Assembly: GCF_021191635.1 (NCBI RefSeq)
Contig: NZ_JAIWPR010000020.1
Coordinates: 1-64,000, forward strand
DNA: 64,000 bases
Reading direction: 5' to 3'
From: Alterluteimonas quercicellularis
GTDB lineage: Bacteria > Pseudomonadota > Gammaproteobacteria > Xanthomonadales > Xanthomonadaceae
Shown: positions 6,489 to 52,198 of the stretch, in pieces
Layout: each line of letters opens with the position of its first letter
Position numbering within the stretch: the first letter of the stretch is position 1
Notes under the pieces: model-generated
Database searches by the model: none
The model's input: only the letters and a program-made list of their open reading frames with translations
Told to the model about the DNA's origin: nothing
Made by a program: the position numbers and the translations under genes

Positions 6489-7372
6489 GGCACCACCCCC
6501 CGCTGCGCCAGCGTATGCAGGTACTGGCCGTAGCCGTTCTTGCGCAGCGGCGCGGCCAGCGCCTCCAGCTGCTCCGCGTCGATCCAGCCCTGCCCGAACG
6601 CGATCTCCTCCGGGCAGCAGACCTGCAGGCCCTGCCGGGTCTGGATCGTCTCGATGAAGTTGGCGGCCTCGTGCAGCGACTGGTGGGTGCCGGTGTCGAG
6701 CCAGGCGTAGCCGCGGCCCAGCTGCTCGAGATACAGCGCGCCGTCGTCGAGATACCGGCGGTTGAGGTCGGTGATCTCCAGTTCGCCGCGCGGCGACGGC
6801 TTCAGCTCGGCGGCGTAGTCGCTGGCGCGGCCGTCGTAGAAGTACAGGCCGGTCACCGCGTAGTTCGAGCGCGGATTCTCCGGCTTCTCGGCGATGTCCA
6901 CGACCCGGCCCTGCGCGTCGAACTCGGCCACGCCGTAGCGCTCCGGATCGTTGACCCAGTAGCCGAAGACCGTCGCACCGCTCGCGCGCTCGTCGGCGCG
7001 GCGCAGGATGTCGCGGAAGCCGTGGCCGTGGAAGATGTTGTCGCCCAGCACCAGGCAGCTCGGCCCGCCGGCGACGAAGTCGCGGCCGATCAGGTAGGCC
7101 TGGGCCAGCCCGTCCGGGCTCGGCTGCACCGCGTAGCGGATGTCCATGCCCCACTGCGCGCCGTCGCCCAGCAGCGCCTGGAACAGCGCCTGCTCGTGCG
7201 GGGTGTTGATGATCAGCACCTCGCGGATGCCCGCCAGCATCAGCGCGCTGAGCGGGTAGTAGATCATCGGCTTGTCGTACACCGGCAGCAGCTGCTTGCT
7301 CACGCCCTTGGTGATCGGATACAGCCGGGTGCCGGAACCGCCGGCGAGGATGATGCCCTTGCGTTGCGTCAT
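6485..7372 (-). CDS. rmlA: Glucose-1-phosphate thymidylyltransferase
   Basis: Makes dTDP-glucose from dTTP and glucose-1-phosphate, the committed step to dTDP-L-rhamnose and usually feedback-inhibited by the end product. 295 residues. The nucleotidyltransferase signature [11 protein letters not shown] lies at residues 11-21, followed by [17 protein letters not shown], then VLGDNIFHG and [19 protein letters not shown]. Coupled to rmlC by a 4-bp overlap. The rmlB gene lies 58 bp upstream on the same strand. Confidence 0.97.
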
Positions 7373-7430
7373 GAAGTGCTTCCTTGGGGAGCCCGCACGC
7401 GCAGGCGCGGGGTCTTGCGAGGGACCGGCG

Positions 7431-8486
7431 TTACGCCGCGGTGCCGATGCGTTCGAGCCGGTAGCTGCCGTCGAGGATGCGCTGCACCCAGTCCTGGTGG
7501 GACAGGTACCAGTCGACCGTCTCGGCGATGCCGCTGTCGAAGTCGTGGCGCGGGCGCCAGCCGAGCTCGTCGCGCAGCTTGGAGGCGTCGATGGCGTAGC
7601 GGCGGTCGTGCCCGGGGCGGTCGGCGACGAAGGCGATCTGGCTGCTGCGCGGCTGGCCGTCCTCGCGCGGGCGGCGCTCGTCGAGCAGGCGGCAGATCGT
7701 GCGCACGACCTCGATGTTCTCGCGCTCGGCGTCGCCGCCGACGTTGTAGGTCTCGCCCACCCGCCCCTTCGCCAGCACCATGCGGATCGCCTCGCAGTGG
7801 TCGGTCACGAACAGCCAGTCGCGCACCTGCCGGCCGTCGCCGTAGACGGGCAGCGGCTCGCCGGCCAGCGCCTTGGCGATCACCAGCGGGATGAGCTTCT
7901 CGGGGAAGTGGTACGGCCCGTAGTTGTTGGAGCAGTTGGTGGTGAGCGTGGGCAGGCCGTAGGTGTGGTGGAAGGCGCGCACCAGGTGGTCCGAGGCCGC
8001 CTTGGAGGCCGAGTACGGCGAGTTGGGCGCGTACGGCGTGGTCTCGGAGAACTTGCCGGTCTCGCCGAGCGTGCCGTAGACCTCGTCGGTGGACACGTGC
8101 AGGAAGCGGAAGGCGTCCCTGGCCTCGCCGTCGAGGGTCTTCCAGTGGTCGCGCACCGCCTCCAGCAGGCCCAGGGTGCCGACCACGTTGGTCTGCACGA
8201 ACGCGGCCGGGCCGTCGATCGAGCGGTCGACGTGGCTCTCGGCGGCGAAGTTGAGCACCGCGTCGGGCCGGTGCTCGGCGAGCAGGCTCGCCACCAGCGC
8301 GCGATCTCCGATGTCGCCATGCACGAAGACGTGGTCCGGGTTGCCCTCCAGCGAGGCCAGCGTGTGCAGGTTGCCCGCGTAGGTCAGCGCGTCGAGGTTG
8401 ACCACGCGCACCCCCTGGCGCACCGCCTCGAGCACGAAGTTGCCGCCGATGAAACCGGCACCGCCGGTCACGAGCCAGGTTGGCAC
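7431..8486 (-). CDS. rmlB: dTDP-glucose 4,6-dehydratase
   Basis: Converts dTDP-glucose to dTDP-4-dehydro-6-deoxyglucose with bound NAD. 351 residues. N-terminal [10 protein letters not shown], then [11 protein letters not shown], the catalytic region HVSTDEVYG and YSASKAASD (YxxxK), and [14 protein letters not shown]. The start codon is GTG (8486), supported by AAGGAG eight bases upstream and by family starts at WLVTGGAG. First gene of rmlBACD; a candidate -10 lies about 65 bp upstream. Divergent from etfB. Confidence 0.96.
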
Positions 8487-48775: not shown

Positions 48776-49354
48776 TCAGCGGTCGAGGAAGTTCTTCAGC
48801 AGGGCGTGGCCGTGTTCGGTGAGGATCGACTCGGGGTGGAACTGCACGCCCTCCACCGGGTGCTCGCGGTGGCGCAGCCCCATGATCTCCTCGATCCCGC
48901 CGTCGTCGTGCTCGGTCCAGGCGGTGACTTCCAGGCAGTCGGGCAGGCTCTCGCGCTCGACCACCAGCGAGTGGTAGCGGGTGGCCTCGTAGCGGTCGGG
49001 CAGCGCGGCGAACACGCCCCGTCCCTCGTGCCGGATCGCCGAGGTCTTGCCGTGCATGATGCGGCCCGCGCGCACCACCTTGCCGCCGTAGGCCTGGCCG
49101 ATGGCCTGGTGGCCCAGGCATACGCCGAGGATCGGCGTGCTCGCCCCGAGCCGCTCGATGACCTCCAGCGACACCCCGGCCTCGTTCGGCGTGCACGGGC
49201 CCGGCGAGATCACGATGCGCTCCGGCCGCAGGCGCTCGATGGCGTCCACGTCGAGGGCGTCGTTGCGCTCCACCCGCACCTCGGCGCCCAGCGCCTGCAG
49301 GTACTGCACGAGGTTCCAGGTGAAGCTGTCGTAGTTGTCGAGCATCAACAGCAT
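48776..49354 (-). CDS. trpG: Anthranilate synthase component II (glutamine amidotransferase)
   Basis: 192 residues from ATG 49354 ([19 protein letters not shown]). Supplies ammonia from glutamine to TrpE. The class I amidotransferase triad is complete: the nucleophile Cys in [16 protein letters not shown], His and Glu in [14 protein letters not shown]; the oxyanion segment [12 protein letters not shown] is present. The open frame upstream to 49507 is not used. trpE is on the same strand but 1.3 kb upstream, beyond an opposite-strand oxidase gene. Confidence 0.97.
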
Positions 49355-49530
49355 GGGTCGTTCCGCGATCGGGAAGGCGGCGTGGCGGCGCCGGCCGGCG
49401 GCTCGCCGGAGTCGCGGGCGTACCGGGCGGTCCACGCGGGGGCGCCAGCTTATCAGCCGCCGCGCGCCCGGCGCGGCGCGATGGGCTACCCTCGGCCGCG
49501 AATCCACCGCGCTCCGCCCCTGCCCGCCCC

Positions 49531-50676
49531 ATGCGCGCGACCGCCTTGCCCGACACGCCGTCCTCGCCGCCGCGCCGCCGCCTGCTCGGCGGCGCGCTCG
49601 CCGGCGGCGCGCTGCTGACGCTGGGCGGCTGCGCCACGCGCGCGGCCGGCCCCGCGCCGGCTACCGGCCGCCTCGCGCTGCCGATGCCGGACCTGGACCC
49701 GAGCCTGCTGATCCGCGAGGTCGCCGGGCTGCGCCCGTTCCGGCCGGCCGGCTTCCGGGTGGAGCCGGAGCGCTTCGGCGACACCCTGGTGATCCACCAC
49801 TACGGCCACGGCGGCTGCGGGGTGACGCTGTCCTGGGGCACCGCGGACCTCGCCCTGCGCCACGCGCTGGCGCAGCCCGAGCGCCGCGCGGCGGTGCTCG
49901 GCTGCGGCGCGGTCGGGCTGGCCACCGCGCGGCTGCTGCAGGACCACGGCTTCGAGGTCGCGATCTACGCCCGCGAGCTGCCGCCCGACACCGTGTCCAA
50001 CATCGCCGGCGCGCAGTTCGGGCCCAGCGGGCTGCTCGACGCCGAGCACCGCACCGATGCCTTCGGCGCCCGGCTCGCGCACGCCGCGCGCTTCGCCCAC
50101 CGCCGCTTCCAGCTGCTGCCGGGCGAGCGCTACGGCGTGCGCTGGATGCCGCTGTACTTCGTGTCGCGGCGTCCGGCGTGGTCGCCGGGCTGGGAATGGG
50201 CGCTGACGCCGGAGCTGTTCCGCGCGCGCACCCACGCGCCGGGCACGCACCCGCTCGGCGACCGCTACCTGCACGAAGTGCAGACCATGATCATCGAGCC
50301 GACGATCTACCTGCCGGCGATGACCGACGCCTTCCGCCTGGCCGGCGGCCGCATCGAGGTGCGCGAACTGAAGAGCCTCGACGACGTGCGCGCGCTGCCG
50401 GAGCGGCTGGTGGTCAACTGCACCGGCCTGGGCGCGCGCGCGCTGTTCGGCGATGCCGGCCTGCAGCCGGTGCGCGGCCAGCTGGCGGTGATCGTGCCGC
50501 AGCCGCAGATCGACTACGCGGTCATCGGCGCCGGCGGCACCTATCTGTTCCCGCGCCGCGACGGCCTGCAGCTGGGCGGCACCCACGAGCGCGGCGCGTG
50601 GTCCACCGTGCCGGATCCGGCCACCACCGCGGACCTCCTGGCGCGCCACCGGCGGCTGTTCGGCGGCCAGGACTGA
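49531..50676 (+). CDS. D-amino-acid-oxidase-like FAD oxidoreductase, exported, apparently circularly permuted
   Basis: 381 residues from ATG 49531. The N-terminus has twin arginines ([16 protein letters not shown]) and Cys in LGGCA, suggesting Tat export and lipid attachment. Residues 66-72 GLRPFRP and 91-103 [13 protein letters not shown] are motifs that close ordinary D-amino-acid oxidases, yet here they precede the FAD Rossmann motif [13 protein letters not shown] (124-136). The rest follows in normal order: [46 protein letters not shown] and GGTHERGAW, then the chain ends without a second copy. Likely oxidises a D-amino acid or similar amine in the periplasm. Opposite in strand to the trp genes. 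Confidence 0.82.
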
Positions 50677-50698: not shown

Positions 50699-52198
50699 CT
50701 ACAGCCCCTGCGCCGCCTGCGCCACCGCGCGGAACAGCGCGCGGCCCTTGTTCATGGTCTCGTCCCACTCCCTGCCGGGATCGGAGTCGTAGACGATGCC
50801 GGCGCCGGCCTGCACGTACAGGCGGCCGTCCTGGATCACCGCGGTGCGGATCGCGATCGCGGTATCGGCGTCGCCGTGCCAGCCGATGTAGCCGACCGCG
50901 CCGGAGTACACGTTGCGCTTGACCGGTTCGAGGCTGCGGATGATCTCCAGCGCGCGCACCTTCGGCGCGCCGCTGACGGTGCCGGCGGGGAAGGTCGCGC
51001 GCAGCACGTCGGCGTAGCTCAGGCCGGGCTTCAGCCGCCCCACCACCTCGCTGACGATGTGCATGACATGGCTGTAGCGCTCGATGACGAAGCGCTCGCC
51101 CAGCGCCACGCTGCCCGGCTCGGAGACGTGGCCGACGTCGTTGCGGCCGAGGTCGATCAGCATCAGGTGCTCGGCGCGCTCCTTCGGGTCGGCCAGCAGC
51201 TCCGCCTCCAGCGCCTGGTCCTCCTCCGGCGTCGCGCCGCGCGGGCGGGTGCCGGCGATCGGGCGCACGGTGACCTCGCTCCCGCCGCCATCGGTGCGCT
51301 GCAGCCGCACCAGGATCTCCGGCGAGCTGCCGACCACCTGGGTGCCGCCGACGTCGAGGAAGTACATGTACGGCGACGGGTTCAGCGCGCGCAGGGCGCG
51401 GTACACGTCCACCGGCCTCGCGTTGAACGGCACCGACATCCGCTGCGAGAGCACCACCTGGAACGCGTCGCCCGAGGCGATGTACTCCTTGGTCTTCTCC
51501 ACCGCGGCGATGAAGCCCTCGCGGGTGAAGCCGGACACGAAGTCGGCCTCGTCCAGCGCCGCCGGCTGCAGCGTCTCCGGGTAGCCGGCGCCGCCCTGCC
51601 GCAGGCGGTGGGTCAGCGCGTCGAGACGGCGGCCGGCGCGCGCCCAGGCCTGCGGCTCGCGCGGGTCGGCGTGCACGATCAGGTACAGCCGGCCCTTGAG
51701 GTTGTCGAACACCGCGACCTCCTCGCTGCGCATCAGCAGGATGTCCGGCGTGCCCAGCTCGTCGCGCACGTCCTCGCGGACCCCGCGCGCCAGGCGCGGC
51801 TCGATGTACTCGATGCACTCGAAGCCGAACCAGCCGACCAGGCCGCCGGCGAACCCGGGCAGGCCCGGCAGCCGCGGCACCCGGTGCTCGGCGCGCAGGC
51901 GCTCGACCTCGGCGAACGGGTCCTCGACCTCGCGCGTCTCGATCGTCTCGCCGTACTCGCCGACCGTCAGCGTGCGGCCGCGGAAGGCGTACACCCGCGA
52001 GGCGGGCAGGCCGATGATCGAGTAGCGGCCGAAGCGCTCGCCGCCCTCGACCGACTCGAACAGGTAGGTGTACGGGCCGTCGGCGAGCTTGAGATAGACC
52101 GACAGCGGGGTGTCGAGGTCGGAGAGCACCTCGCGCACCACCGGGATGCGGGTATGGCCTTCGGCGGCGAAGCGGTCGAACTGCTGCTGGGTGATCAA
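50699..52198 (-). CDS. trpE: Anthranilate synthase component I
   Basis: 499 residues; converts chorismate with ammonia from TrpG to anthranilate. The N-terminal regulatory part has [33 protein letters not shown] (quoted in part: [16 protein letters not shown]), where tryptophan binds; the catalytic part has [34 protein letters not shown] and [18 protein letters not shown]. The start is TTG 52198 ([19 protein letters not shown]), matching close relatives; no ATG or GTG fits. A 16-codon ORF ending in Trp lies 50 bp upstream. Confidence 0.96.

Follow-up and report, generated by a model that had tools for sequence, protein, structure and literature searches.

The window, by which we mean the whole 64,000-nucleotide stretch of DNA analysed here, carries on its forward strand an open reading frame of 381 codons (49531-50676) whose product probably belongs to the D-amino-acid oxidase (DAAO) and D-aspartate oxidase (DASPO) family as a natural circular permutant, exported by the Tat pathway, lipidated, and oxidising D-amino acids or close amines. 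The assignment of the whole gene as a permuted DAAO-like flavoprotein, probably exported, draws on the open reading frame, its motifs, its matches in the PDB and a predicted structure.

All parts of the chain are encoded on the + strand. A leader (residues 1-34, 49531-49632), recognised from the sequence and from the conservation of R15 and R16, comprises three arginines at 15-17, a hydrophobic stretch and the lipobox LGGC at 31-34 with Cys34. Residues 35-51 (49633-49683) are a likely tether, the mean pLDDT of the AlphaFold model being 55 for residues 31-40, 70 for 41-50 and 97 for 51-60. Sequence matches, profiles and the model equate residues 52-113 (49684-49869) with the C-terminal part of a conventional DAAO; the model gives this part strands 60-70, 76-82 and 85-91 and helix 101-113, and its sequence includes GLRPFRP (residues 66-72, 49726-49746), with R68 aligned to pig DAAO R283, and the 13-residue C-terminal signature of DAAO (residues 91-103, 49801-49839). 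The old C- and N-termini would be joined at residues 114-118 (49870-49884), where model and motif spacing indicate no net linker. Sequence matches, fold and profile then equate residues 119-381 (49885-50673) with the N-terminal part of a conventional DAAO. Here lie the FAD-binding motif GCGAVG (residues 124-129, 49900-49917; sequence and alignment), Y338 (50542-50544), aligned to pig DAAO Y228, and GGTHERGAW (residues 349-357, 50575-50601; sequence and model). After GGTHERGAW and a helix at 363-378 the window chain stops, whereas conventional chains continue to GLRP. An earlier sequence-only reading of this DNA had placed GLRPFRP, the C-terminal signature and GCGAVG at the same residues, with GGTHERGAW near the end of the chain.

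Swapped order of the two parts

The Pfam model of the DAO superfamily (PF01266) matches the window protein in two stretches at 102.2 bits, against a gathering cut-off of 27.9, and matches 56 of 56 members at E up to 0.01. When the PDB is searched with the window protein by phmmer, 17 DAAO or DASPO sequences are found, 16 of them in two stretches and one (1c0i) in a single stretch, and in all three alignments printed the parts are swapped. Specifically, residues 112-372 align to residues 7-266 of human DASPO (6rkf), and residues 52-110 to residues 271-332 of the same chain. A profile of the window protein and 55 relatives (A2) recovers these 17, with E values from 2.4e-50 to 1e-34; 16 of them once more match in two stretches, and both alignments printed show the swapped order. 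The small N-terminal part also stands on its own: a profile of residues 50-118 alone (A3, 53 rows) picks out, with an E limit of 0.1, 17 distinct PDB sequences, every one of them a DAAO or DASPO (17/17), and always at chain residues 270 to 374, which is the C-terminal part.

Conventional bacterial enzymes give the same picture. Against a profile built from 14 conventional bacterial DAAOs, 112 of 112 permuted proteins align in two swapped pieces and none in normal order. This set consists of 76 proteins from a scan of genome_contigs, 12 from genomes of the window's order, and the window together with loci already inspected for motif order; 88 of the 112 were chosen by similarity alone, without sorting on motif order. 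The pieces of the window protein fall at profile positions 254-305 and then 4-252, so the two pieces nearly meet: the break would lie at a single point to within two positions, and little would be lost.

The motifs can also be followed by pattern. Each of the 80 loci kept as the best of at least 551 relatives in genome_contigs has a single early YGHGG in its open frame (80/80, L044 and L092 being cut by contig ends), and the FAD motif follows it by pattern in 77; the three others (L094, L102 and L103) show the swapped order by the conventional-DAAO profile. Four ambiguous or cut loci (L040, L044, L048 and L092) are excluded from the 112-protein set and from the active-site, spacing and strict-leader counts. 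A hidden second copy of the C-terminal motifs is absent from the window: YGHGG occurs once, and the 24 residues past GGTHERGAW hold no copy, in agreement with the sequence-only reading. The median distance in conventional enzymes is 28 residues between YGHGG and the C-terminus and 8 between the nearest upstream Met and GxGxxG, while in permuted chains the median distance from YGHGG to the FAD motif is 34 residues (types A and B of the tree described below) or 38 (type C). Because these spacings agree (28 + 8 against 34 or 38), the old ends appear to have been joined without a net linker.

The AlphaFold model of the window protein has a pLDDT of 90.6, and its residues 115-379 take up the DAAO fold; the structural aligner left residues 1-114 unaligned, and the fold match covers residues 115-379. 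The model runs from helix 101-113 into strand 119-123, just where the sequence-only reading had expected the old termini to meet, between residues 103 and 119. By sequence and fold comparison the window protein comes closest, among solved structures, to DAAO and DASPO. Two features of that family, the fold and the residues Arg283 and Tyr228 (R68 and Y338 in the window protein), are present, and the order of a third, the FAD motif at the N-terminus with GxRPxRP and NYGHGG at the C-terminus, is reversed. The circular permutation that had been proposed for this protein is thus supported by sequence and model: of the 17 solved DAAO or DASPO sequences, 16 match in two stretches, swapped in all five alignments printed, and the A3 fragment profile, the conventional profile (112/112 swapped) and the DAAO-fold model agree with these matches.

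Set beside solved enzymes (human D-aspartate oxidase 6rkf and the mammalian and fungal DAAOs 1kif, 7ct4 and 1c0k), the window protein has the two parts in the opposite order, a leader with lipobox, and a shorter loop at pig residue 223. The conventional bacterial DAAOs (L131-L133, L151-L153, L155-L159 and L161-L163) share the same two parts with it, piece by piece; unlike the window protein, these 14 fall outside the permuted clade and have no leader. Among the NCBIfam matches listed (25 of 41), no family passes its cut-off for the window protein, which scores 45.7 of 250.8 bits against glycine oxidase ThiO (TIGR02352), below the equivalog cut-off, and 19.7 of 383 bits against D-amino acid dehydrogenase DadA (NF001933, PRK00711); ThiO and DadA are both of conventional order.

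A tandem-duplication intermediate between the two orders did not appear when the 14 conventional proteins were compared by blastp with the 2380 neighbouring ORFs of at least 100 aa in the 80 loci (best 80 of at least 551 relatives), no match being found at E 1e-5. One candidate intermediate, a partial match in the Gemmatimonadota genome G772, is actually a permuted gene in which the match ends just past the join. That gene (L188) runs on into sequence that we take to be nuclease- or transposase-like.

Spread and phylogeny

The genome_contigs scan gave at least 551 confirmed relatives, which may include conventional enzymes, from 591 stretches. The record titles of the 80 retained (best of at least 551) name Acidobacteriota, Gemmatimonadota, alpha- and gammaproteobacteria and Verrucomicrobiota, and further Bacteroidota (Ekhidna), Myxococcota and a few MAGs labelled otherwise; altogether, permuted relatives bear the labels of at least seven phyla. 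Within the window's order a relative was found, with E no higher than 1e-10, in 13 of 200 genomes, the window's own included, and the other 12 relatives are all permuted. A sample of the window's phylum has a match in 15 of 299 genomes, 15 of 15 permuted, plus a weak partial match (L124), with six candidates scored per genome, a scheme in which conventional DAAOs may be missed. The remaining samples, whose phylum names come from the titles of their centre loci, are mixed: Acidobacteriota have a match in 11 of 99 genomes (8 permuted, 3 conventional), Gemmatimonadota in 18 of 81 (14 permuted, 2 conventional, 2 partial) and Bacteroidota in 21 of 148 (2 permuted, the rest of conventional two-part order or partial). 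Permuted and conventional forms are thus both recovered by the same searches, and the order is a stable trait. The sequence-only reading had spoken of similar proteins in Xanthomonads, which is too narrow for a large family that spans several phyla and is in part leaderless. One acidobacterial genome (G540; L146, L154) has four paralogues of permuted order, including a pair about 14 kb from each other.

Matches also occur in 13 plasmid records. Among the nine examined, six are permuted (in Rhizobium, Mesorhizobium, Bradyrhizobium, Niveispirillum, Kozakia and the actinomycete Nonomuraea) and three conventional; four of the six permuted genes have no label beyond 'FAD-dependent oxidoreductase', and for the other two the gene table has no entry. 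The Mesorhizobium gene (L126, 3971-5034) is a copy annotated as two CDS meeting at the FAD motif. A phage search returned no match.

For the trees, the parts of the permuted chains were rearranged into conventional order and type A was thinned at random, giving 70 rows in a first tree and 68 in a second without the long-branch L160. In the unrooted 68-row tree, 51 permuted rows split from 14 conventional bacterial and 3 eukaryotic rows with support of 100/99, and this one clade makes a single origin of the permuted order likely. Among the permuted rows are type B, with 15 rows at 100/100, type C, with 5 rows at 100/99, and type A, to which the window belongs, with 31 rows at a weak 88/54; neither the conventional bacterial rows nor the three eukaryotic rows form one group. 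The 70-row tree also holds a type D, represented by the highly divergent Bacteroidota protein L160, which is likewise permuted. The rows nearest to the window by path are two alphaproteobacterial proteins (1.32), the set of three being supported by 98/85, and the best identity of the window protein to any row of the 70-row set is 53%.

Leaders and gene neighbourhoods

R15 and R16 are invariant across the 56 rows of A2, and the window protein has the RR motif, hydrophobic stretch and lipobox Cys of a Tat lipoprotein. RRR at 15-17 with LGGC at 31-34 resembles a Tat-type leader with a lipobox, as the sequence-only reading had named it, and from this we infer Tat export and lipidation at Cys34. 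The Pfam TAT_signal model matches 2 of 56 and is absent from the families listed for the window. In the 80 loci (best 80 of at least 551) an Arg pair with a hydrophobic stretch is found in 79 and a lipobox by pattern in 63, counts that lean upward because the starts were picked with the Arg pair in mind, each chosen as the closest one upstream of an [RK]R pair, a rule that favours leaders. A stricter rule applied to the tree set finds a leader in 82 of 84 type A, 21 of 22 type B and the single type D protein (1/1), in 1 of 5 of type C and in 0 of 14 conventional proteins; the type A proteins L031 and L032 fail it despite a plain RR. With four of its five members leaderless, type C shows that permutation need not go together with export. 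The member that has a leader (L122) branches outside the other four with weak support (90/34).

Conventional bacterial DAAOs have no leader in 14 of 14 cases, and in 13 of the 14 the FAD motif lies 5-13 residues past the nearest upstream Met, under a rule that starts the chain at the Met nearest the FAD motif and favours absence. Seven of the eight Bacteroidota conventional frames (L155-L159, L161-L163) leave little or no room for a leader, L156 and L159 being judged by length (322-324 aa). A permuted chain starts with a flexible tether and a conventional one with the first FAD strand, a difference that may explain why the permuted form is exported. Elsewhere in the superfamily, however, export or membrane anchoring occurs without permutation: 3dme is titled an exported protein, and the L-amino-acid deaminase of Proteus is another such case.

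Around the permuted genes of the 80 loci (best of at least 551), no conserved operon or constant D-amino-acid pathway was found. The only strongly repeated neighbourhood, read by eye, is hslV with hslU (clusters of 11 and 10 loci). An hslU-like gene lies next downstream in L054, L056, L059, L062, L065, L073, L083, L090 and L105 (at about 7020-8480), and hslV-like genes lie upstream in most of the nine sphingomonad-type loci, a fixed place in that group; this neighbourhood says nothing about the function of the permuted gene. An M19 dipeptidase (L102), an S58 peptidase (L080), a beta-lactamase-like hydrolase (L069) and amino-acid permeases (adjacent in L051, 3.8 kb away in L074) are leads only, because the ten neighbours concerned were hand-picked by eye.

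Three further arrangements deserve mention. On the Kozakia plasmid (L130, 2914-4574) a c-type cytochrome gene begins 5 bases after the permuted gene, which is of type B, and the surroundings encode a beta-lactamase-family protein, S9 and S15 peptidases and a TonB receptor. A 450-residue CxxCH protein is encoded downstream in three gammaproteobacterial or related MAG loci (L029, 7541-8929; L053, 7933-9294; L055, 2895-4250). On Rhizobium and Bradyrhizobium plasmids (L125, 2482-6708; L127, 2411-6738) a leaderless type C gene is flanked by genes for a berberine-bridge-type (BBE) FAD enzyme and a thiamine-diphosphate (ThDP) enzyme, a setting that suggests a cluster working in the cytosol, perhaps in biosynthesis.

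Active site, alternatives and meaning

Arg283 and Tyr228 of pig DAAO are its substrate-binding residues, the arginine holding the substrate carboxylate. The position of R283, R68 in the window protein, is Arg in all 84 type A, 22 type B, 5 type C and 14 conventional rows. That of Y228, Y338 in the window protein, is more variable: in the 84 type A rows it is Tyr in 59, His in 20 and another residue in 5, it is Tyr in 5 of 5 type C and 13 of 14 conventional rows, and it is not Tyr in any printed type B row (20 of 22). Most rows of types A and C and of the conventional set retain the GGT of residues 349-351 of the window protein as G-G-T/S; type B has lost it. In every A and C row the loop that precedes pig Y224 is gapped at residue 223, and hence at least one residue shorter. 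The replacements of Tyr228 in type A and the loss of Tyr and GGT in type B suggest that the chemistry may have drifted.

With the permuted order, the fold over 115-379, the FAD motif, the substrate Arg and Tyr, the conservation across several phyla and the single permuted clade all computed, the window protein is most likely a lipid-anchored periplasmic FAD enzyme acting on D-amino acids or similar amines. A conventional chain would have been opened past the helix behind the GGTxxxGxW motif, so that the old C-terminal helix runs directly into the first FAD-binding strand. The protein would fold with FAD in the cytoplasm, be exported by Tat, be lipidated at Cys34 and come to lie on the periplasmic side of a membrane. 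There hydride transfer to FAD would oxidise its substrates, D-amino acids or close amines; the reduced flavin would in turn be reoxidised by O2, yielding H2O2, or by a respiratory carrier. The D-amino acids could come from peptidoglycan or from the surroundings.

The last step is where the strongest alternative departs: the permuted fold would be right, but the enzyme a periplasmic dehydrogenase for another amine, an imino acid or a peptide-derived substrate, with electrons going to a c-type cytochrome or quinone. Type B speaks for this, lacking GGT and, in the printed rows, Tyr228, as do the cytochrome gene 5 bases beyond the Kozakia type B gene, with peptidase genes around it, and the CxxCH proteins 70 to 950 bases downstream in the type A loci L055, L029 and L053. 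However, the CxxCH count follows a loose rule (13 of 92 loci, some of these ORFs distant from the permuted gene), and the window protein itself retains Arg, Tyr and GGT and has DAAO and DASPO as its closest solved relatives. For the window gene we regard such a dehydrogenase as rather unlikely.

The genomic setting raises a second doubt. The window gene lies antisense between trpE (50699-52198, -) and trpG (48776-49507, -), names that reflect our reading of the sequences. It is the single match in its own genome; in none of the 12 congeners in which trpG was located was the gene found closer than 1.5 kb to it, and 8 of these show the end of trpE without the gene; in the congener G126 a genome-wide search gave no match to the window gene. 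The window copy is an insertion between trpE and trpG, or else the copy was lost or moved in the congeners. A lone copy so placed, with 53% identity at most among the tree rows and so without a close relative, might be a decayed or non-catalytic copy with another role, or a pseudogene. Yet the frame is uninterrupted, catalytic and FAD residues are retained, and its codon-position GC (0.777, 0.556, 0.976) resembles at the third position that of the neighbouring trpE (0.726, 0.46, 0.982). A GC3 of 0.976 is as for a real gene in this genome and does not mark the copy as recent, and we consider decay very improbable. That there is no permutation at all, the motifs being chance or convergent or two genes having been fused by an assembly or gene-prediction artefact, has the unusual order as its sole point and a negligible probability: both halves match DAAO chains separately, significantly and swapped, which is not chance, the model is confident across the join, L090 sits on a chromosome titled complete genome, and the fragment profile (17/17 DAAO or DASPO) and conventional profile (112/112 relatives swapped) rule it out.

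Returning to the permuted, exported oxidase as the preferred reading, a broader history can be sketched, which we put forward tentatively and with somewhat less than even confidence. One ancient permutation would have made a cytosolic DAAO into an envelope family of seven or more phyla, freeing the N-terminus for a Tat/lipoprotein tether. The family would then have split into an oxidase-like type A, a type B with a remade active site that perhaps feeds c-type cytochromes, and a mostly leaderless, cytosolic and perhaps biosynthetic type C.

DAAO is a textbook flavoenzyme, and a natural permutant is apparently without earlier description in the literature searched: within the collection covered by a full-text search, no description of a natural circularly permuted DAAO was found. 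The nearest parallel, in PMC11334425, is the circularly permuted FMN-bind1 domain of multi-flavinylated proteins, which is likewise permuted and in an extracytosolic flavoprotein but is another, FMN-binding domain; and PMC12502724 includes a 'D-amino acid oxidase' (A0A060QKK3) in a release catalogue of Asaia bogorensis. The permuted plasmid genes, generically labelled or missing from the gene table, expose an annotation gap. So old and widespread a permutant offers a natural experiment in how the DAAO fold forms, is loaded with FAD and gives access to substrate, and the permuted family suggests that D-amino acids are oxidised in the envelope of bacteria.
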